Shown piece after piece: positions 11,844 to 50,690 of a stretch of DNA of 64,000 nt. The notes under the pieces were generated by a model. The model saw only the letters and a program-made list of their open reading frames with translations. It made no database searches and was not told the origin of the DNA. Location: contig NZ_LT629735.1 in the NCBI RefSeq assembly GCF_900104925.1, positions 3,517,001 to 3,581,000 of the forward strand. Reading direction: 5' to 3'. The number at the start of each line of letters is the position of its first letter. Within the stretch, counting starts at the first letter, position 1. The position numbers and the translations under genes are program-made. This stretch comes from Opitutus sp. GAS368 (GTDB lineage Bacteria; Verrucomicrobiota; Verrucomicrobiia; Opitutales; Opitutaceae).

Positions 11844-12545
11844 TCAGAAGGTGCGGGTGTATCGGCCGCCTTTCTCGTCCTCGAAGGTGAGCGAGTTGCT
11901 CGTGATGCCGACCAGCTTCAGGCCCATCTCGTGCTCGACCATGTCCCCGATGCGATAGACGCGGTCGTTCATCAGCACCTTGCTGTCCGTGGCCGAGGCG
12001 CGGATGCCGAGGACCTTGATATTGTCGATGAAGTTCATGGCGCGCGGCTCAAGCTTCAGCGCCGGCTTGGGCGGTTCTGCCGCCTGAACCGGCGGCGAGA
12101 CCTGAGACCTGAAACCTGAAACCTGAGGTGAGGGCGAAGACGAAACCTGAGGTGCCGGCGAAGAAGAGACCTGAGGTGGCGCGACTTGAAGAGTAAACGA
12201 AGGTGTCGCTGCCGGAATGGTCGGTGTCGTGACCGGCTGAGTGTCAGCTGTTGCAGGTGCCTGAGTCGGAGGGGTCTGGGCCGTAGAGGCCTTGGAACCC
12301 TCAGGTTTCAGGTTTCGAGTTTCAGGTTTCTCTCGCAGGACGAGCCATCCTCCGATGGCGAGGACCAGCACCACGGCCGCGCCGATGCCGGCGCGCAGGA
12401 CCAGCGTGTCGAACCCGCCCGGCTTGGCCCGCCGGGAGATCGACGCGGCCGACTCGCCGCCGACGCTTGGCATCGAACCCAGCGACGGGGCCTCGCCCGT
12501 CCGCTGCTTCTGGGCCTTCTTGAGGGCGTCGTTGATCAAACTCAT
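11844..12545 (-). CDS. GspB/ExeB-like secretion accessory protein with low-complexity linker
   Basis: The 233-residue product begins MSLINDALKKAQKQR, the signature opening of GspB/ExeB-type proteins that pair with the GspA ATPase. A single membrane segment spans about residues 52-70. The linker is rich in Pro, Ala, Thr and Gln and is followed by a small C-terminal domain (about 165-233) like the PilP/GspC-type homology domain, ending ENKGGRYTRTF-like. Two heptamer repeat arrays lie inside the gene and encode KPETRNLKPEG and QVSGFRSQVS in the linker. The GspA-like ATPase gene is 170 bp upstream on the same strand, separated by a palindromic repeat element. Confidence 0.72.
   Translation of the reverse strand: MSLINDALKKAQKQRTGEAPSLGSMPSVGGESAASISRRAKPGGFDTLVLRAGIGAAVVLVLAIGGWLVLREKPETRNLKPEGSKASTAQTPPTQAPATADTQPVTTPTIPAATPSFTLQVAPPQVSSSPAPQVSSSPSPQVSGFRSQVSPPVQAAEPPKPALKLEPRAMNFIDNIKVLGIRASATDSKVLMNDRVYRIGDMVEHEMGLKLVGITSNSLTFEDEKGGRYTRTF
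12097..12329. repeat. Pair of inverted heptamer arrays inside the GspB-like gene
   Basis: Positions 12097-12124 hold four 7-bp units (GAGACCT twice, GAAACCT twice), with single units again near 12151 and 12170. Positions 12302-12329 hold the complementary form (CAGGTTT, CAGGTTT, CGAGTTT, CAGGTTT). The two arrays face each other about 180 bp apart within the coding sequence and are translated in frame as linker residues. Confidence 0.85.
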
Positions 12546-13617: not shown

Positions 13618-14001
13618 ACCAAGGCATTTTTAACACAGAGGCCCCAGAGGCCACAGAGGATTTTAACCACTAATGAACACTAATGAGGCACTAATTGGGA
13701 TTGGTGAGATGAAATCAATCGATCCAGACCAAGGCATTTTAACGCAGAGGTCGCGGAGAGCGCAGAGAGATGGAACCAAGATATCTTTTAACCACGAAGG
13801 ACACGAATGGACACGAAGTTGAACCAAGGCATTTTACCGCGGATTGCGCACTGTTGCGGCATGCTTGCCACCCGGTGTTTGTCCCGGAACTCCGTCGTCC
13901 CGCGGATTCACGGGCAAACGGATGAACACGGATGGGATGAAAATCACCCGAGCTATGTCTTTATCCGCCAAATCCGCGCCATCCGCGGAAAAATCCGTTT
14001 G
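13618..14001. repeat. Block of dispersed repeat modules with CCAAGGCATTTT headers
   Basis: Successive modules begin ccaaggcatttt (about 13618, 13730, 13823). Their arms carry triple 7-nt cores: CACAGAG-type (13633), CACTAAT-type (13664), GCAGAG-type (13743), CACGAAG-type (13791) and CGCGGAT-type (13837). Only the last is closed inside the block, by tttatccgccaaatccgcg-like sequence near 13970-14000. The complements of the others appear after the FtsB-like gene. No protein-coding gene is supported here. Confidence 0.85.
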
Positions 14002-14012
14002 ATTGCTCTCCG

Positions 14013-14303
14013 GTGAATCCCCGCAAGCTGATCCTTGGATTTTATGGGGCGCTGTTTGTGGGGGTGACCCTGTGGGCCGTGACCTTCTTCGTGCAGATGC
14101 ACCGCGACATCACCGCGCTGCGCGCCCAGGAAACCATCAACCAGCGCCGGCTGGCCGAGGCGGAAGCCCGGCTGTCGGCGCAGGAGAAATACCTCGAGCA
14201 ACTGCGCCACGACCCCGTGCTGGTCGAGCAGCTCATCCGTCAGAAGCTCGGCTACGTCAAGAACCAGGAATTCGTTTTCCGCTTCGAGGAAGAGAAGAAA
14301 TGA
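14013..14303 (+). CDS. FtsB/DivIC-like septum formation initiator protein
   Basis: This small protein of 96 residues starts at GTG (14013). It has one N-terminal membrane helix (about residues 6-27), then a charged coiled coil (about 32-70) and a C-terminal segment VEQLIRQKLGYVKNQEFVFRF. The last part is the FtsB/DivIC hallmark, where a conserved Arg-x-x-LGYV-x-x-xE region follows the coil. Proteins of this family form the FtsQLB divisome subcomplex. The gene is isolated between two repeat blocks, so the operon context that usually helps (eno in many bacteria) is missing. The length and topology match the family well. Confidence 0.82.
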   Translation: MNPRKLILGFYGALFVGVTLWAVTFFVQMHRDITALRAQETINQRRLAEAEARLSAQEKYLEQLRHDPVLVEQLIRQKLGYVKNQEFVFRFEEEKK

Positions 14304-14314
14304 CCATGGCACCC

Positions 14315-14645
14315 AAGGCATTTCCGCGGATAACGCGGATAAGACGGATGGAAACAGCCAATCCGACCCCGCATTTATCCGTATCATCCGCGATATCCGC
14401 GGGGAAAACGGAGTAAGAAACCAAGGCATTTTAAACCACGGATTACGCGGATGAACACGGATGATAGAAATCCAAGGCAACGGATTTTTGAACCACTAAT
14501 CCCCACTAATCCCTCACTAATGATTAGTGACAAATTAGTGTGCATTAGTGGTTAAACCGCATTGGCTTTTATCCGTTTAATCCGTGCCATCCGTGGTCAA
14601 ACTGTTTGTCTCGGTGTTCTCTGTGACCTCTGTGTTTAAATCAGT
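14315..14645. repeat. Nested palindromic repeat block between FtsB-like and UAP1-like genes
   Basis: This block contains a CGCGGAT hairpin (14323-14404), another ccaaggcatttt header (14423), and a CCACGGAT arm (14437-14461) closed at 14569-14601. Inside that lies a complete CACTAAT hairpin (14490-14556). A final arm (14613-14640, ctctgtgacctctgtgttta) complements CACAGAG arms located upstream of the FtsB-like gene. It is a strictly nested arrangement with no gene. Confidence 0.87.
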
Positions 14646-14653
14646 CTGCATTC

Positions 14654-16177
14654 ATGGAAATTGAACAATTGATCGCTTCCTACCGTGCCGCCGGCCAGGG
14701 GCAGGTTTTTGCCTTCTGGGATTTCCTGCCGCCGAGCGAACGCGCCGCCCTGGCCAACCAGGCGGCCGAGATCGACCTGGCCGAGGTCGAGCGGCTGAAC
14801 CGCACCCTGGTGTTCAATCAGGGCGGGACGGGGGTGAACCTGGACGGCCTGGCGCCGGCGCCGTGCGAGCGCCTGCCGGAGAACGGCGGCGACGCCGCGC
14901 AATGGGCGGCGGCCAAGGCCGCGGGCGAGGCGGCGTTGCGCGCGGGCCGCGTGGCGGCGTTCACGGTGGCGGGCGGGCAGGGGACGCGCCTCGGTTACGA
15001 CGGCCCGAAGGGCACGTTCGCCGTCACGCCGCTCAAGCAGAAGCCCCTCTTCCAGGTTTTCGCCGAGAAGATCAAGGCGGCCGGGCTGCGTTACGGAAAG
15101 CCGCTGCACTGGTTCATCATGACCAGCCACGCCAACCACGAGCAGACGGAGCAGTTCTTCGCGGCGAACAAGTGCTTCGGTCTCGACAGGGGCCGTGTGC
15201 ATTTCTTCCGCCAGGGACGCATGCCGGCGGTGGGCTTCGACGGCAAGATCCTGCTCGAGACGCGCTCATCGCTGGCGCTGAGCCCCGATGGACACGGCGG
15301 CTCCCTGCGGGCGCTGCATCGCAGCGGGTCCCTCGACCTGATGGAACAGGAAGGGATCGACACCATCAGCTACTTCCAGGTGGACAATCCGCTCGTGCGT
15401 TGCATCGACCCGGCTTTCATCGGCTTTCACCTGCGGGCGAAGGCCGGCATGTCGAGCAAGATGGTGCCCAAGGCCTATCCCGAGGAAAAGGTGGGGCATT
15501 TCTGCCGGCAGAACGGCAAGGTCGTCGTGGTCGAATACAGCGACATGCCGTTGGCGCTGCAGCGGGAGACGAATCCCGACGGTTCACTCCGCTACAGTGC
15601 GGGGAGCATCGCGATTCATATCATTGATCGCGAGTTCGCCCGTCGAATGGCGGGCGGCGCGGACGCGCAGAAACCTGTAACCGGAAACCTGAAACCTGAA
15701 AGTTCCGAACCCCCTCAGGTCTCAGGTCTCAGGTCTCAGGTTTCAGGTTTCCAGGCCGCCCCATCCCCGGCGCTCCCATTTCATAGGGCCGATAAGAAAA
15801 TCCAGACGGTGGATGCCGCCGGGCAACCCGTGCGGCCGTCGACGGCCAACGGCGTGAAGTTCGAGATGTTCGTCTTCGATGCGCTGCCGTTTGCCGACAA
15901 TTCCATCGTGATCGAGACGGCGCGGGCGGACGACTTCAGCCCGGTCAAGAACGCCGAGGGCGTGGACTCGCCGCAGACCTGCCGGGACGACCAGCTCCGG
16001 CAGTTCGCCCGCTGGCTCAAGGCGGTGGGCGCCGCCGTCGAGACCGACGCCACCGGGTTGCCCCAATGCGGGTTGGAAATCTCGCCGCTCTTCGGGTATG
16101 ACGCCGACTCGTTCGCCGAGCGCTGGCACTCCCTGCCGATCAAGCCGGTCGTCGCCGACGGCCTTTACTTGGAGTAG
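14654..16177 (+). CDS. UAP1-like UDP-N-acetylhexosamine/UDP-sugar pyrophosphorylase (UDPGP family)
   Basis: The 507-residue product has FTVAGGQGTRLGYDGPKGTF at about residues 104-123, the nucleotide-binding signature of the UDPGP family. It also has FIMTSHANHEQTEQFF and a YFQVDNPLVRCIDPAFIG segment like eukaryote-type UAP1 (UTP plus GlcNAc-1-phosphate to UDP-GlcNAc). Specificity between GlcNAc-1-P and hexose-1-P cannot be set from sequence alone. Residues about 339-366 are a non-conserved insertion encoded by heptamer repeats. The phosphohexomutase gene follows 180 bp later and could supply the sugar-1-phosphate. Confidence 0.85.
   Translation: MEIEQLIASYRAAGQGQVFAFWDFLPPSERAALANQAAEIDLAEVERLNRTLVFNQGGTGVNLDGLAPAPCERLPENGGDAAQWAAAKAAGEAALRAGRVAAFTVAGGQGTRLGYDGPKGTFAVTPLKQKPLFQVFAEKIKAAGLRYGKPLHWFIMTSHANHEQTEQFFAANKCFGLDRGRVHFFRQGRMPAVGFDGKILLETRSSLALSPDGHGGSLRALHRSGSLDLMEQEGIDTISYFQVDNPLVRCIDPAFIGFHLRAKAGMSSKMVPKAYPEEKVGHFCRQNGKVVVVEYSDMPLALQRETNPDGSLRYSAGSIAIHIIDREFARRMAGGADAQKPVTGNLKPESSEPPQVSGLRSQVSGFQAAPSPALPFHRADKKIQTVDAAGQPVRPSTANGVKFEMFVFDALPFADNSIVIETARADDFSPVKNAEGVDSPQTCRDDQLRQFARWLKAVGAAVETDATGLPQCGLEISPLFGYDADSFAERWHSLPIKPVVADGLYLE
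15670..15752. repeat. Inverted heptamer arrays inside the UAP1-like gene
   Basis: The left arm (15670-15700) has GAAACCT-type units. The right arm (15714-15752) has CAGGTCT three times and CAGGTTT twice. Bases 15683-15699 and 15736-15752 are perfect 17-bp inverse complements, so the insertion can fold into a hairpin. It is translated in frame as a linker reading NLKPESSEPPQVSGLRSQVS. Confidence 0.88.
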
Positions 16178-16178
16178 G

Positions 16179-16330
16179 TAAACCACGGAATACACAGAAT
16201 ACACGGAATGGTCCGGACGATTGCACAGGAGATAACGGAGAAAACTGAGGCACTCCGAACCAAGAACTCCGTTCCCTCTGTTTCCTCCTGTGAGATTATT
16301 TTCCGTGTTTTCCGTGTGTTCTGTGGTTAA
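16179..16330. repeat. Nested palindromic repeat element (three-core arms)
   Basis: Outer arms of CACGGAA/CACAGAA cores (16179-16209) are matched by ttttccgtgttttccgtgtg-type sequence to 16330. Inner arms carry acaggagataacggag (16225-16245) and its complement (16268-16295). This is the same element as at 12561-12710 and fills the gap between the UAP1-like and mutase genes. Confidence 0.87.
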
Positions 16331-19183: not shown

Positions 19184-20614
19184 TCAGACGAGCAGCAGGG
19201 CCGGCTTCTCCATGAGATCCTTGAAGGCGCCGAGATACTGCGCGCCGACGGCGCCGTCGAGCACGCGGTGGTCGCAGCTGAGGGTCACGGTCAGCGTCTG
19301 GCCGGGCACGATCGCGCCGTTCTTGATCACGGGCTTGGCGACCGTGGTGCCGACGGCGAGGATGGCGGAGTTCGGCGGGTTGATGATGGCGGTGAACTTC
19401 GGGATGCCCATCATGCCGAGGTTGGAGACGCAGAAGGTGCCACCGGTGTATTCATTCGGGGCGAGCTTCTTGTCCTTGGCCTTTTTGCCGAGGGCCTTGG
19501 CCTCGGTACTGATCTGGAAGACGCTCTTGAGGTGACAGTCGCGCACCACGGGGGTGATCAGGCCGTCCTCGAGGGCGACGGCGAAGGCGACGTGCGCGGC
19601 ACCGTGGTAGCGGATCTGGGTGCCTTCCCAGGAACTGTTGACCGCAGGGACGCGGCGCAGGGCCTCGGCGGAGGCCTTGAGCACGAAATCGTTCACGGAG
19701 AGCTTCACGCCCTCCTTCTCGAGGCCGGTGTTGAGCTGCGCGCGAACGGCCAGCAGCGGCTCGGCGTCGATCTCGATGTCGAGGTAGATGTAGGGGATGG
19801 TCGTCGTGGACTCGAGCATGCGCTTGGCGATGACGCCGCGCATCGTGGAGACGGGGACGGTGCGGTCCGGCTGGATCGGGCTGCCCGATCCAGAGAAACC
19901 TGAAACCTGAGACCTGAGACCTGAAGGGGCGGAGGACGGACCGGAAGGGGATTTGAGCAGGGCTGGGTTGGCCGCCGCGGCGAGGACGTCGGCCTTGACG
20001 ATGCGGCCGTGCGGGCCGGTGCCGGTGACACGCGAGGCGTCGACCTTCTGGTCGGCGGCAATCTTGCGGGCCAAAGGGGAGATGCGCAGACGGCTGTCGC
20101 CGTCGGAAACCTGAGAGCTGAAACCTGAAGCCTGAGGGGCTGCAGCCGGAGCAGCGGCCGCCTGCGCCGTTACCGGTGCAGTTGTTGGCACTGGCGCGGC
20201 CGGCTGTCCGCCTTCGCTCTGCGAGCTACGGCGCGATTCGTCCTGAGGCTTTGCTTCAGGCGAAGAAGCAGGGGCCGTCTTCTGTCCTCCGTCCTCTGAT
20301 TTCCGTCCTCCGTCCTCTGTCTTCTGGGCGGGCGCCGGCGCAGCCGGTGCCGCCGGTGCCGCCGGGGCGGCCTCGCCGGGCTTGCCGATGGCGCAGAGCG
20401 GGGCGCCGATGGCGACCTGGGCGCCGGGCTGGGCGTAGATCTTGATCAGCGTGCCGGTGAAGAACGACTCGAGCTCCATCGTCGCCTTGTCGGTCTCGAC
20501 CTCGGCGAGCATGTCGCCGGACTTGACGGCGTCGCCTTCCTTGCGGAGCCACTTGACCAGCGTGCCCACCGTCATGGTGTCGCTGAGCTTGGGCATATCG
20601 ATGATGTCGGCCAT
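19184..20614 (-). CDS. pdhC: Pyruvate dehydrogenase E2, dihydrolipoamide acetyltransferase
   Basis: The product has 476 residues. One N-terminal lipoyl domain (about 1-80) has the lipoylated Lys43 in ETDKATMEL. A long Ala/Pro-rich linker (about 81-165) follows, then a peripheral-subunit-binding domain (RISPLARKIAADQKVDASRVTG, about 166-200), a second linker and the catalytic domain, with the active-site motif SCDHRVLDGAVGAQ near the end. It transfers acetyl from E1-bound hydroxyethyl-TPP to CoA. The linkers contain three heptamer arrays translated in frame. E1beta and E1alpha genes lie upstream on the same strand, giving a complete E1/E2 set; E3 is not in the window. Confidence 0.95.
   Translation of the reverse strand: MADIIDMPKLSDTMTVGTLVKWLRKEGDAVKSGDMLAEVETDKATMELESFFTGTLIKIYAQPGAQVAIGAPLCAIGKPGEAAPAAPAAPAAPAPAQKTEDGGRKSEDGGQKTAPASSPEAKPQDESRRSSQSEGGQPAAPVPTTAPVTAQAAAAPAAAPQASGFSSQVSDGDSRLRISPLARKIAADQKVDASRVTGTGPHGRIVKADVLAAAANPALLKSPSGPSSAPSGLRSQVSGFSGSGSPIQPDRTVPVSTMRGVIAKRMLESTTTIPYIYLDIEIDAEPLLAVRAQLNTGLEKEGVKLSVNDFVLKASAEALRRVPAVNSSWEGTQIRYHGAAHVAFAVALEDGLITPVVRDCHLKSVFQISTEAKALGKKAKDKKLAPNEYTGGTFCVSNLGMMGIPKFTAIINPPNSAILAVGTTVAKPVIKNGAIVPGQTLTVTLSCDHRVLDGAVGAQYLGAFKDLMEKPALLLV
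19895..20323. repeat. Three heptamer arrays in the PdhC linkers
   Basis: 19895-19922 has GAAACCT twice and GAGACCT twice. 20106-20133 has GAAACCT, GAGAGCT, GAAACCT, GAAGCCT. 20275-20323 has seven units of the CCGTCCT/CTGTCTT type, translated as EDGGRKSEDGGQK. All three fall in flexible linkers, between folded domains, and keep the reading frame. Confidence 0.88.
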
Positions 20615-31215: not shown

Positions 31216-31428
31216 ATGGACAAAAAGACCATCATGAAGGAAATCATCGCCAAGGTGGGCCGCGAGCGGGCCATCGACATGGTGATGCAGTCCTACAACA
31301 CCGAGCTCCTCACGACCCTGCTCAACCGCCTGGAAGAAGGAAAACCGAAGATGATCGGCGGCTACAAGCGGCGCGACCACCTGGAGGCCGCGCTGCAGCG
31401 CGTGGTGGAAGTTTGCGAACTGGCCTGA
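31216..31428 (+). CDS. Small protein of unknown function
   Basis: A 70-residue product starting at ATG 31216, chosen because CAGGAGA at 31204-31210 is a good ribosome-binding site at normal spacing. It is highly charged and helical in character (MDKKTIMKEIIAKVGRERAIDMVM, then NRLEEGKPKMIGGYKRRDHLEAALQRV), with no cysteine motif or membrane segment. I do not recognise the family. The codon use is like that of neighbouring genes, so I think it is real. A heptamer array begins two bases after its stop codon. Confidence 0.65.
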   Translation: MDKKTIMKEIIAKVGRERAIDMVMQSYNTELLTTLLNRLEEGKPKMIGGYKRRDHLEAALQRVVEVCELA

Positions 31429-31430
31429 TG

Positions 31431-31493
31431 ACAGAGGACGGAGGACAGAGGACGGAGGACAGAATACAGAGGACGGAAGACGGAGGACGGAAG
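31431..31493. repeat. Nine-unit heptamer array, left arm
   Basis: Nine perfect-phase 7-bp units of ACRGARG type: ACAGAGG, ACGGAGG, ACAGAGG, ACGGAGG, ACAGAAT, ACAGAGG, ACGGAAG, ACGGAGG, ACGGAAG. The inverse complement occurs at 31902-31930, on the other side of the broken four-helix-bundle gene. Confidence 0.92.
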
Positions 31494-31526
31494 GGAATTA
31501 ACTTACGGGCCAACAATGAATGAAGC

Positions 31527-31901
31527 ATGCAAATCAGCCACTTCACGGAGCTCCGGGTGTATCAACGTTCATCTGAACTGGCCGGGCAGATATTTCTGCT
31601 CTCCTAGCATTGGCCGCCGGAAGAAAGGTTTGCGCTGACTGATCAGATCCGTCGCGCGGCGCGTTCAGTGGGGGCCAATGTCTCGGAAGCTTGGGGCAAA
31701 CGACGCTATGAGGCGCACTTCCTCAGCAAACTGTCCGATGCTGACGCCGAGAATCACGAAACCGAGCACTGGTTGCTCACGGCCAAGCGTGACGGCTATT
31801 TAACGGACTCGGAATTTGGCGGACTGCTGGAAATCAAAAAAGACGTTGGCCGGATGCTGGGTGCAATCATGCAAAATCCCGGCCCCTTCCTGCTCGGGTA
31901 G
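31527..31901 (+). pseudogene. Four-helix-bundle (S23/IVS-type) protein gene with in-frame amber stop
   Basis: From ATG 31527 the frame reads MQISHFTELRVYQRSSELA, then a TAG at codon 27 (31605-31607), then HWPPEERFALTDQIRRAARSVGANVSEAWGKRRYEAHF in the same frame to the stop at 31899. This is the family's usual order (elxVyqkA..lAgelF.lsk.FP.eErysLtdQiRrSsrSv.aNiaEaw.kr). The stop replaces one of the conserved helix-1/2 loop codons. Only one lesion is seen, so loss is recent, unless the stop is read through. The function of the family is unclear; it is known from 23S intervening sequences and many mobile-like contexts. Confidence 0.82.
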
Positions 31902-31930
31902 CCGTCCTCTGTCTTCCGTGCTCCGTCCTC
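31902..31930. repeat. Heptamer array, right arm (inverse of 31431-31493)
   Basis: Units CCGTCCT, CTGTCTT, CCGTGCT, CCGTCCT plus CTG. They are in phase with, and complementary to, the left array, so the broken gene lies between facing inverted arrays. The array begins at the stop codon of the gene and ends next to the response regulator stop. Confidence 0.9.
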
Positions 31931-31932
31931 TG

Positions 31933-32667
31933 CTACTTCGTCGGCGGCTCGAAGATGTAGCCGATGCCGTGGACGGTCCGGAAGCAGTCGAGGGAGAGTC
32001 CGTTCTTCTCGAAAGCCGCGCGCACCTTGACGATGTATTGGTCGAGCGAGCGGCTGCGGATGTCGGCGTGCATGCCCCAGACGGAATGGATCAGCTCCTT
32101 GCGGGTGATGACGACGCCGACGTGGGTGTGGAGGTAGGCGAGGATGCCCAGCTCCTTGCGGCCGGTCTTGAGCGTGACGCCGTTGGGGAAATCGAGCTCG
32201 AGGCGCTCCGGGTGCACCTTGACGCCGAGAAACTCGAAGGGGCCGTCGGTGGTGCGGACGTTCTTGGTGACGTTGAAATCCGTCTGGCCCTCGGCGCGGC
32301 GGAGGACGGCATTGATGCGGGCGACCAGCTCGGTGTAGCTGAAGGGCTTGGTGATGTAGTCATCCCCGCCGAGGTTGAGGCCCTTGACCTTGTCCTCGTC
32401 CTGCGAGTTGGCGGTGAGGAAGATGGCCGGGGTGTTGATGTCCTGCTCCTTCATCTGCCGGAGGAGATCGAAGCCGGAACCTTCCGGCATGTTGACGTCG
32501 AGCAGGACCAGGTTGGCGAAATTGTGCTGGAGGAAGCGCAGCGCGGGGGCAATGCGGTTGTAAGCCTGGATGTTCATGCCGGCATCCTCGAGATGCTGCG
32601 CGATGACTTTCGACAGCTCTTCCTCGTCTTCGACGACGACAATCAGGGGGCGGGGTTCGGCGCACAT
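31933..32667 (-). CDS. OmpR/PhoB-family response regulator
   Basis: The 244-residue protein starts MCAEPRPLIVVVEDEEELS. The receiver domain has the acidic pair in VVEDEEEL, the phospho-acceptor Asp in VLLDVNMPEGSG (about residue 54), a Thr in IFLTANSQ and the conserved Lys in YITKPFS. The C-terminal winged helix (about 140-240) includes GRKELGILAYLHTHVGVVITRKELIHSVWG and ends VHGIGYIFEPP, typical of DNA-binding OmpR effectors. No histidine kinase gene is adjacent in the window, so its partner is unknown. It is divergent from AguB with a 138-bp intergenic region. Confidence 0.93.
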   Translation of the reverse strand: MCAEPRPLIVVVEDEEELSKVIAQHLEDAGMNIQAYNRIAPALRFLQHNFANLVLLDVNMPEGSGFDLLRQMKEQDINTPAIFLTANSQDEDKVKGLNLGGDDYITKPFSYTELVARINAVLRRAEGQTDFNVTKNVRTTDGPFEFLGVKVHPERLELDFPNGVTLKTGRKELGILAYLHTHVGVVITRKELIHSVWGMHADIRSRSLDQYIVKVRAAFEKNGLSLDCFRTVHGIGYIFEPPTK

Positions 32668-44794: not shown

Positions 44795-44829
44795 ACAGAA
44801 GACAGAAGACGGAGGACAGAAGACACAAA
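44795..44829. repeat. Five-unit heptamer array between lgt and gcvT
   Basis: Units ACAGAAG, ACAGAAG, ACGGAGG, ACAGAAG, ACACAAA. It is the same family as 31431-31493 and lies between the divergent lgt and gcvT starts. Confidence 0.82.
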
Positions 44830-49739: not shown

Positions 49740-50690
49740 CCGGGCCAAAATCGGAGGTGGGTGCTCGCCACGCACTCTTCTCCATTCGCACAGCATTGGG
49801 CGCCTCGCTTTCGCGGGCCGTGTGCTTCCCGACGCTACTCACCGCGGCATGCGATGGTGTCGGTCTCATAGCGGGACCGTCCCGGTCTTTTCAGCACCGG
49901 AATCTTTCGAGTGAGGCCTCTGCGCCTGGTTCGGCTCCATCTGCCGATGGGTGGCTCGCCGGACGGGTGTTGGCACGCCTGCAACGTCTGCATTTCGCAC
50001 CAGCACCTTGCCAGGAGGACGGCCCCGGCTTTTGGCCGGGCGTTGGCCCCCTGTAACGGGTCTGACCTCTTACCTCTCAGGTTGCTTTCGACTTGCGGTT
50101 GGGTGACGCGGTTTTACGCGCCGCCCCAAGGAGGAGGTTTTGCGAGCTTTGCCAGACTCGCCCGCTCCCCGCTGCGCCGTGGCCCTTTCGCGCCCCGCTT
50201 TTTAGAGCCGGGCCTTTTGGTGGGGTGGACCCACCGGAACACTGCGCTGCGTCCTGGTTATACAGTAGCAACCGAAACCCTCTGGGTAACTGCATCAGTG
50301 CAAGGCCCGAAACTGGCCTTGGACCTGACTCGACTCGGACGCGGTTTCTGAGTTCGCGCCTCGTCGCACAGCTCCTTTGTCGCAATACTGGATCGGCTGC
50401 GACACCGTCCAGAGGAACTGGTGATATTTGCCTGCCTGTGGCTCGCGCCACTGAGGGGAGGACGTCACCAATTAACGCCCTCCTTTCCCCGGTTGCCCGG
50501 GATTATCCCAGTCGCGCTCTCGGCGGGTTTTTCATGCCGCCGCGCTGCGACTGTTCTATCAAGGAACAGGTGAAATCAATGCGGCAATCGCGCGGAAAGT
50601 CACGGGCTTCTTCCTCCCATCTTGTTCACCGCGCTCGCGCCGGGCCTTTGCATCAGCGGGCGTGAATAACTTGTGCCCAACCGCTTGCTC
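49740..50690 (-). ncRNA. Candidate long structured RNA of unknown class (no coding gene seen)
   Basis: About 950 bp with many local stems (for example 50462-50486, 50304-50322, 50024-50041, 49873-49886) and no credible protein. It ends in the leftward terminator at 49711-49738. I tested by eye for RNase P RNA (the GAGGAAAGTCC core), tmRNA (tRNA-like ends, ALAA tag), 4.5S and rRNA and found none. Open frames overlap in several directions, as is common in structured RNA genes. The class, ends and direction are uncertain; it might also be a decayed element. Confidence 0.3.

Follow-up and report, generated by a model that had tools for sequence, protein, structure and literature searches.

The 64,000-nucleotide stretch analysed here (the window) comprises bases 3517001-3581000 of contig NZ_LT629735.1 of Opitutus sp. 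GAS368 (GCF_900104925.1), whose 4.15 Mb genome is a single contig. It contains a gene of the S23 (23S_rRNA_IVP) family of four-helix-bundle proteins, located between two arrays of 7-base units that face each other in inverted orientation. The gene and its arrays lie between a 70-aa open reading frame (ORF) and a convergent response regulator gene (Table 1). Loci are numbered below with the prefix L, and genomes with the prefix G.

The sequence-only reading of this DNA had described a broken four-helix-bundle gene, preceded by nine ACRGARG units and followed, from its stop codon on, by complementary units. Both arrays are present, the second one with four to five units, and profile matching identifies the gene as S23 (PF05635). 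The reading frame is not intact, being interrupted by one in-frame TAG codon; the PF05635 match spans this stop with 97.2 bits (cut-off 33.8), and the part after it alone yields 41.5 bits with PF05635 and 43.7 bits with TIGR02436 (cut-off 24). The arm-to-arm score of the window copy (L002) is 25.5, with period 7 on both sides, while a score of 20 is reached by 0.05% of 2000 random intervals, and hence the arrays are not a chance similarity. In the predicted RNA fold one array pairs with the other, enclosing the gene (z = -5.6, 100 shuffles). Thus, the window copy consists of facing inverted period arrays around one small gene, and it is absent from the orthologous junction in relatives (see below).

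The same layout is common to S23 relatives, and the earlier observation, made on one locus, understated its extent. S23 genes were found in at least 40 of the 57 relatives searched. As the arm score alone rises with ordinary palindromes (7 of 21 flanks of RAYT genes, taken at 450 bases, reach 14), we applied a joint test, which requires that the arm-to-arm score reach 12 and that at least one arm have period 7 or 8. It is passed by 59 of 74 S23 loci from the same order and by 64 of 77 loci from named genomes of many phyla, compared to 8 of 3000 random intervals, 73 of 1500 mismatched flanks (the 5' flank of one locus against the 3' flank of another) and none of the 21 RAYT loci that could be measured (nine more of the initial 30 were too short and were left out). 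Hence, the proposal to compare members of the family with random genes gave a clear difference. Random intervals and control ORFs, as well as the control for ORF direction used below, come from genomes of the same order, and 40 of the S23 loci were drawn from the upper part of the match list with a few partial ones skipped, so that weak family members are under-sampled.

The score distributions are consistent with the joint test. An arm score of at least 12 is observed at 62 of 74 S23 loci, compared to 7.8% of 2000 random intervals and 7.8% of 1500 mismatched flanks, and a score of at least 16 at 42 of 74, compared to 0.3% and 2.1%, respectively. Only one of 72 size-matched ORFs (80-200 aa) and 10 of all 286 control ORFs reach 13. 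The best 80 loci of the named-genome scan, three of which lack enough flank to be measured, belong to Bacteroidota, Planctomycetes, Acidobacteria, Proteobacteria, Chloroflexi, Clostridia, Nitrospirae, candidate phyla and one archaeal bin; 63 of the 77 measurable ones reach 13, compared to 3.3% of mismatched comparisons. On contigs labelled viral by IMG/VR, 54 S23 loci were collected (L366-L419), and 48 of the 53 measurable ones reach this score. In the archaeal case (L311), the contig was assigned to a Methanophagales bin, and the arrays facing each other around the S23 gene have period 7.

Both arms of one copy carry the same 7- or 8-base unit, and this unit varies between copies. The source genome has six PF05635 matches, five of them over the family cut-off. 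All five lie between facing arrays (scores 12.5 to 25.5), and each has a private unit: TAAGCTT, ACRGARG (the window copy), GTGCGGA, ACTGAAGG (period 8) and a CCAAA-type unit with weak periodicity. Units read inwards are G-rich and C-poor, and a search over 108 loci with clear arrays yielded weak common cores, approximately YYAGRGK for period 7 (n = 83; likelihood 149.6, compared to a maximum of 142.5 in 20 shuffles) and RAGGNACA for period 8 (n = 25; 69.6 compared to 55.8 in shuffles). The gene upstream of S23 is co-directional with it in 50 of 64 cases in the relatives and in 52 of 58 cases among the named loci, compared to 146 of 262 neighbouring ORF pairs; where the upstream gene is co-directional, it ends at a median of 75-96 bases from the S23 match, about the length of one array.

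Empty sites, which the sequence-only reading had suggested looking for, exist at three junctions. Between atpG and atpD, 17 loci of the genus could be read: 13 have a spacer of 27-39 bp, one has 72 bp, and three have 449-455 bp occupied by S23, confirmed by profile, with arrays, the first of which starts directly after the atpG stop codon. Among the atpG-atpD orthologues the array spacers vary while a CTGAA core is kept (by eye). Moreover, profile matches place S23 elsewhere in the atp neighbourhood at three further loci (L130, L131, L141), and S23 or GxxExxY genes were noted in this neighbourhood at G007:C223, G044:C9, L130 and L131; the atp operon thus has been hit repeatedly. Between trpB and yicC, S23 is found by profile in 7 of 18 loci, with four arrays of the CCAAA type and three of the CAAGTAA type (types assigned by eye); three loci have no spacer at all, the stop and start codons overlapping, and eight carry other sequence, in some cases nested three-core repeats. 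At the window site, the S23 profile matches the window locus itself and none of 15 relatives. In six relatives the 70-aa ORF adjoins the response regulator with no S23 between them, the spacers being 27-32 bp in three and 58-107 bp in the other three, where they hold palindromes resembling repetitive extragenic palindromes (REPs). Seeding of the array by a host target sequence is conceivable, as the array starts at the upstream stop codon in L001 and L036, but the empty atp and window sites contain no matching heptamer (by eye).

Comparison of related copies shows where the repeated sequence ends. In genome G043 two S23 copies at different sites are 92.7% identical over 453 bp and the match stops at the arrays, while a third copy nearby retains both ends and has its interior replaced by other sequence. 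Different-site pairs were compared for 36 S23 combinations, and in four of them (L021-L051, L019-L051, L019-L049 and L049-L051) the alignment extends, at either end, to no more than 6 bases from the outer limit of the array; for two of six GxxExxY pairs (L115-L189 and L118-L189) this distance is at most 3 bases. The near-identical copies L008 and L036 differ in the number of units, about eight and four, respectively. No target-site duplication was recognised by eye at L008, L036 or atpG-atpD, where no systematic analysis was made.

Once pairs from the same site had been filtered out by comparing their flanks, copies with more similar proteins were found to have more similar arms (S23, rho 0.12, a value reached in 33 of 2000 permutations; GxxExxY, rho 0.30, reached in none of 2000). 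Similar arms (similarity above 0.6) are observed in 6 of 20 S23 pairs with protein identity of at least 65% and in 2 of 1584 pairs below it, the respective values for GxxExxY being 4 of 8 and 5 of 566. Therefore, the units travel along with the genes, but change fast. The median ratio of nonsynonymous to synonymous substitution rates (dN/dS) is 0.10, a rough estimate from the 53 usable of 125 pairs of both families, some of them same-site and many with dS above 1; judging from these sequences, both proteins look to be under purifying selection.

The GxxExxY/PDDEXK_3 genes (PF13366, TIGR04256) form a second family, unrelated to S23, yet having the same array-bounded layout. They are present in 42 of the 57 relatives and are flanked by facing arms of three units of 8-10 bases with a typical core C(A/G)C..A. 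The sequence-only reading had spoken of period-7 or three-core arrays around four-helix-bundle genes; period 7, and also 8, is indeed the rule at S23, while the three-core arms belong to GxxExxY genes instead. With periods 8-10, the joint test is passed by 33 of 40 GxxExxY loci, compared to 16 of 3000 random intervals; the 40 include two truncated loci with mis-sliced flanks (L097, L111), both scoring below 12. Across the phylum, 23 of 24 further loci (L440, likewise truncated, among them) reach score 13, with a few arms having other units or a plain inverted repeat. All 11 copies in the source genome have facing arms (scores 12 to 27.5), and the core differs in nearly every copy. Three canonical cores were recognisable on each arm at 22 of the 40 loci; there the spacers agree in 56 of 102 comparisons made in mirrored register and in 39 of 114 made otherwise, and so the arms look like mutual copies.

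Arrays without a gene are frequent as well. Three consecutive exact ACRGARG units occur 35 times in the source genome (overlaps counted), at 16 loci, and the reversed pattern does not occur; of these loci the window one alone has an S23 gene. Among the genomes of the genus, G000 (16 loci) and G017 (7) have the most of these arrays, and it is in these two that ACRGARG-armed S23 copies were found. Three-core arms number 285, compared to 8 for the reversed pattern. Of the first 100 in the list, 82 have a core that is also present in a full-length GxxExxY copy of that genome; overlapping arms, and those belonging to the full-length elements themselves, are counted here. The random stretches examined (1.12 Mb in 56 pieces) contain 23 short-loop facing pairs and seven with loops of at least 220 bases; judged by eye, one of the latter holds a GxxExxY gene, one an ORF that looks isochorismatase-like, and five, of 867-2133 bases, span coding sequence and look like chance. 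This isochorismatase-like ORF, in L448 (2108-5002), is enclosed by arrays of the ACRGARG type and has a third one in its vicinity; these may be independent repeats without a gene.

Gene-less arrays of the window are listed in Table 1. The 2-oxoacid dehydrogenase acyltransferase gene (19184-20614, minus strand) carries two types of period-7 arrays, outside the Pfam domains, in linkers; being inside the coding sequence, they are translated there. The region 13620-14640 has dense nested three-core repeats (CACAGAG, CACTAAT, CACGAAG, CGCGGAT, CACGGAT) around a small ORF at 14013-14303. Another repeat, of about 130 bp, is found in at least 12 near-identical copies (L206-L217 and elsewhere in the source genome), its ATACCAA...TTGGTAT ends enclosing three-core arms; it looks like a separate, recently active miniature inverted-repeat transposable element (MITE). 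The window also has a full-length match (506 bits) to MISL RNA (RF03079), a large structured RNA, at 49760-50508 on the minus strand.

Table 1. The S23 locus of the window, its neighbours, and gene-less arrays elsewhere in the window
Feature	Coordinates	Strand	Description
Upstream host gene, 70-aa ORF	31216..31428	+	stop codon TGA 31426-31428; no confident Pfam match
5' array	31430..31491	+	nine 7-base units, ACRGARG (GACRGAR-type), directly after the stop of the upstream 70-aa ORF
S23 / 23S_rRNA_IVP four-helix-bundle gene	31527..31901	+	ATG 31527, TAG 31899-31901; in-frame TAG 31605-31607
3' array	31902..31934	+	four to five complementary units; from the S23 stop codon into the response-regulator stop codon
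Downstream host gene, convergent response regulator	31933..32667	-	Response_reg and Trans_reg_C; stop codon 31933-31935
Facing period-7 arrays GAAACCT / AGGTTTC	12097..12330	.	loop of about 174 bases, without S23, inside ORF 11844-12545
Facing period-7 arrays	15672..15751	.	loop of 12-20 bases, gene-less, inside UDPGP-family gene 14654-16177
Gene-less three-core (CACGGAA) GxxExxY-type element	16184..16328	.	second, L192-type repeat nested within (by eye)
Gene-less ACRGARG-type array (as CCGTCCT)	20275..20326	-	inside acyltransferase gene 19184-20614
Gene-less ACRGARG array	44795..44828	+	no facing arm recognised

That the S23 gene and its facing arrays constitute a mobile, array-bounded unit we consider highly probable. 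The sequence-only reading had taken gene and arrays for a unit, and this is borne out by arrays at most relatives, empty sites, and some copies at different sites that end at array edges. The fuller explanation, that a single-gene mobile unit moving as outlined here has left a decayed copy in the window, is in our judgement probable. The transcript, or a single DNA strand, would form a long hairpin whose loop contains the gene; the S23 protein would bind its own array at several registers of the period-7 ladder, and the bound protein would mark the unit, which host enzymes would then copy or re-insert. Gene-less arrays of the same unit could be served in trans. Slippage and template switching between the arms would keep the units of one copy alike, and unit sequence and protein would drift together, if indeed each protein serves its own arrays, gene-less ones included. 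A ladder of equal units would suit an oligomer or filament of a four-helix-bundle protein; the solved S23 relatives 2gsc and 2rld have five chains per entry. The role of S23 as the array-specificity factor is the more tentative part, for which we would put the chance slightly short of even. As its S23 gene is interrupted, the window copy could move only with help from another copy.

Several observations weigh against this interpretation. No transposition or excision product was observed, movement being read from sequence comparison, and S23 is not known to have a catalytic site. At atpG-atpD the element takes the place of the original spacer instead of only interrupting it. Most of the other different-site pairs are too diverged to show ends, the match stopping within the arrays or the gene, and the coupling between array and protein is weak overall for S23. 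The joint test is failed by 15 of 74 and 13 of 77 S23 genes, and L006, the weak below-cut-off match of the source genome, which was excluded from every S23 count, has no facing arrays (score 8.0). ACRGARG arrays also occur in genomes of the genus without a known ACRGARG-armed S23 copy (six loci each in G018 and G007, 0-3 in the rest). Finally, the sequence-only reading had likened the locus to a gene carried in a long hairpin; the predicted fold agrees with this, but the wobble test of sense-RNA pairing does not support it, the numbers of G.U and A.C pairs being 59 and 79 in S23 arms (p = 0.11) and 12 and 27 in GxxExxY arms (p = 0.02), in both families opposite to the expectation for pairing in the sense RNA. 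Therefore, the hairpin may matter as DNA, or the pairing may be tolerant.

If the period-7 inverted arrays were a general genomic repeat serving as landing sites into which S23 genes insert, the abundance of gene-less facing arrays, in the random stretches as well as in the window, would be natural; however, the empty atpG-atpD and window junctions show no array (by eye), several copy pairs at different sites have arrays in common and match up to the outer edges, and arms are more alike when the proteins are, which makes such landing sites very unlikely. Hardly more credible is a vertically inherited host gene, with arrays acting as processing or regulatory hairpins (an RNase III substrate, or repeated purine stretches resembling ribosome-binding sites). 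Its sense orientation behind a host gene, the predicted folds (z of -5.6 and -3.9), the G-rich and C-poor units read inwards, and the cleavage of 23S rRNA intervening sequences by RNase III in the stem (PMC4990558) would all suit this explanation, but the presence and absence at orthologous junctions, several copies per genome, the lack of the sense-RNA wobble signature and the variation of units from copy to copy contradict it.

Rather unlikely, though deserving more weight, is the idea that the units are MITE-like and are moved by an insertion sequence or RAYT enzyme encoded elsewhere in the genome. Gene-less derivatives do exist, Y1/RAYT genes are present in 16 of 21 genomes of the genus, and S23 is not known to have a recombinase fold. 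Still, the array test is failed by all 21 RAYT loci, seven of which have inverted repeats resembling REP palindromes; in a survey that covered Y1 transposases only, five genomes of the genus have no Y1 match, including G019 with at least eight S23 matches; and a single transposase would not explain copy-private units. From the Y1 distribution and the RAYT loci failing the array test, the RAYT/REPIN system was judged unlikely as the carrier. The arrays could also arise locally by slippage at each insertion and be equalised by template switching, the gene moving by other means and the arms being secondary. This would account for units that differ per site, for unit counts that differ even between L008 and L036, and for variable atp-site spacers next to the stable CTGAA core (by eye); on the other hand, a good part of the similar-protein copies at different sites have the same units, which thus can be carried along, and GxxExxY spacers are mirrored between the arms, so that we regard a purely local origin as quite improbable.

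Returning to the mobile array-bounded unit, we see an even chance that S23 and GxxExxY represent a bacteria-wide class of transposase-less mobile units, in which the product recognises a private ladder forming both ends, unit and protein drift together, cognate gene-less derivatives exist, and 23S rRNA intervening sequences and at least some orphan heptamer repeats are members that landed in rRNA or lost the gene. Two gene families with copy-private arrays may deserve a category of their own, one architecture joining unrelated small proteins, a four-helix bundle and the nuclease-like GxxExxY. Searches of the open-access literature, subscription papers being outside the scope, brought up no account of facing arrays as a general feature of S23 or GxxExxY genes, and PADLOC gave no defence-system match for two S23 proteins and one GxxExxY protein. 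With regard to how S23 genes and rRNA intervening sequences spread, the unit and its ends are now defined, empty sites are known and copies are numerous within genomes, so that mobility becomes directly testable. Short tandem repeats that have lacked an explanation could share their origin with this class, which also hints at recognition codes between protein and repeat, legible from many genomes.

Some features of the unit resemble those of known systems. Foldback transposons of eukaryotes have ends of short tandem repeats in inverted orientation as well, but these elements are long and lack an S23-like gene. Classical insertion sequences and MITEs differ from S23 units, which have no fixed terminal inverted repeats common to the copies and whose array unit varies. 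The REPIN-RAYT system is similar in having short inverted repeats dispersed in intergenic spots, with gene-bearing and gene-less forms, while RAYT is a Y1 transposase and REPs are palindromic and do not form period arrays. The inverted repeats on the flanks of the RAYT genes L237, L238, L239, L248, L249, L253 and L254 have the appearance of classical REP palindromes and represent another, distinct system of the genus. Heptamer tandem repeats without a known carrier include the short tandemly repeated repetitive (STRR) sequences of cyanobacteria. The TAACTGA heptamers of Beggiatoaceae, cyanobacteria and Bacteroidetes (PMC4679880) are direct repeats with one inverted case; they share period 7, a mostly intergenic location and sense orientation with the arrays studied here, but are described, in the available portion of that publication, without a facing arm or a gene. 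As to the protein, the NCBIfam model of Avd from diversity-generating retroelements matches L001 at 2e-5, below its cut-off, and the window protein has a weak bAvd match, so S23 may, on sequence grounds, be distantly related to Avd.

Among the closest known counterparts are the 23S rRNA intervening sequences (IVS) of Leptospira, Coxiella and others, which are excised by RNase III with no ligation afterwards and encode the same protein family, in the sense orientation, inside a stem of complementary ends; complementary ends and a predicted stem around the ORF are present in the window unit too. The Coxiella IVS is 428 nt long, compared to about 505 for the window unit, and has two to three tandem GACAGAT heptamers and one GACAGAA ahead of its ORF (PMC4990558). 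In the same source the function and origin of IVS are called unclear, and the idea of a mobile element is cited. Unlike IVS, the window unit is located between protein genes, the 70-aa ORF and the response regulator, and not inside a 23S rRNA gene, and therefore it is not an IVS by definition; S23 units also differ from IVS in the unit varying from copy to copy, in several copies per genome and in gene-less derivatives. The RNA-family scan of the window returned no rRNA, its only match being MISL; no rRNA or other known RNA family was found at any of the 20 loci scanned out of the 80 named ones, and a crude test with six short exact 23S motifs found none in L001-L075 and L286-L419. By analogy, the window unit may work like an IVS and be related to the source from which IVS came.
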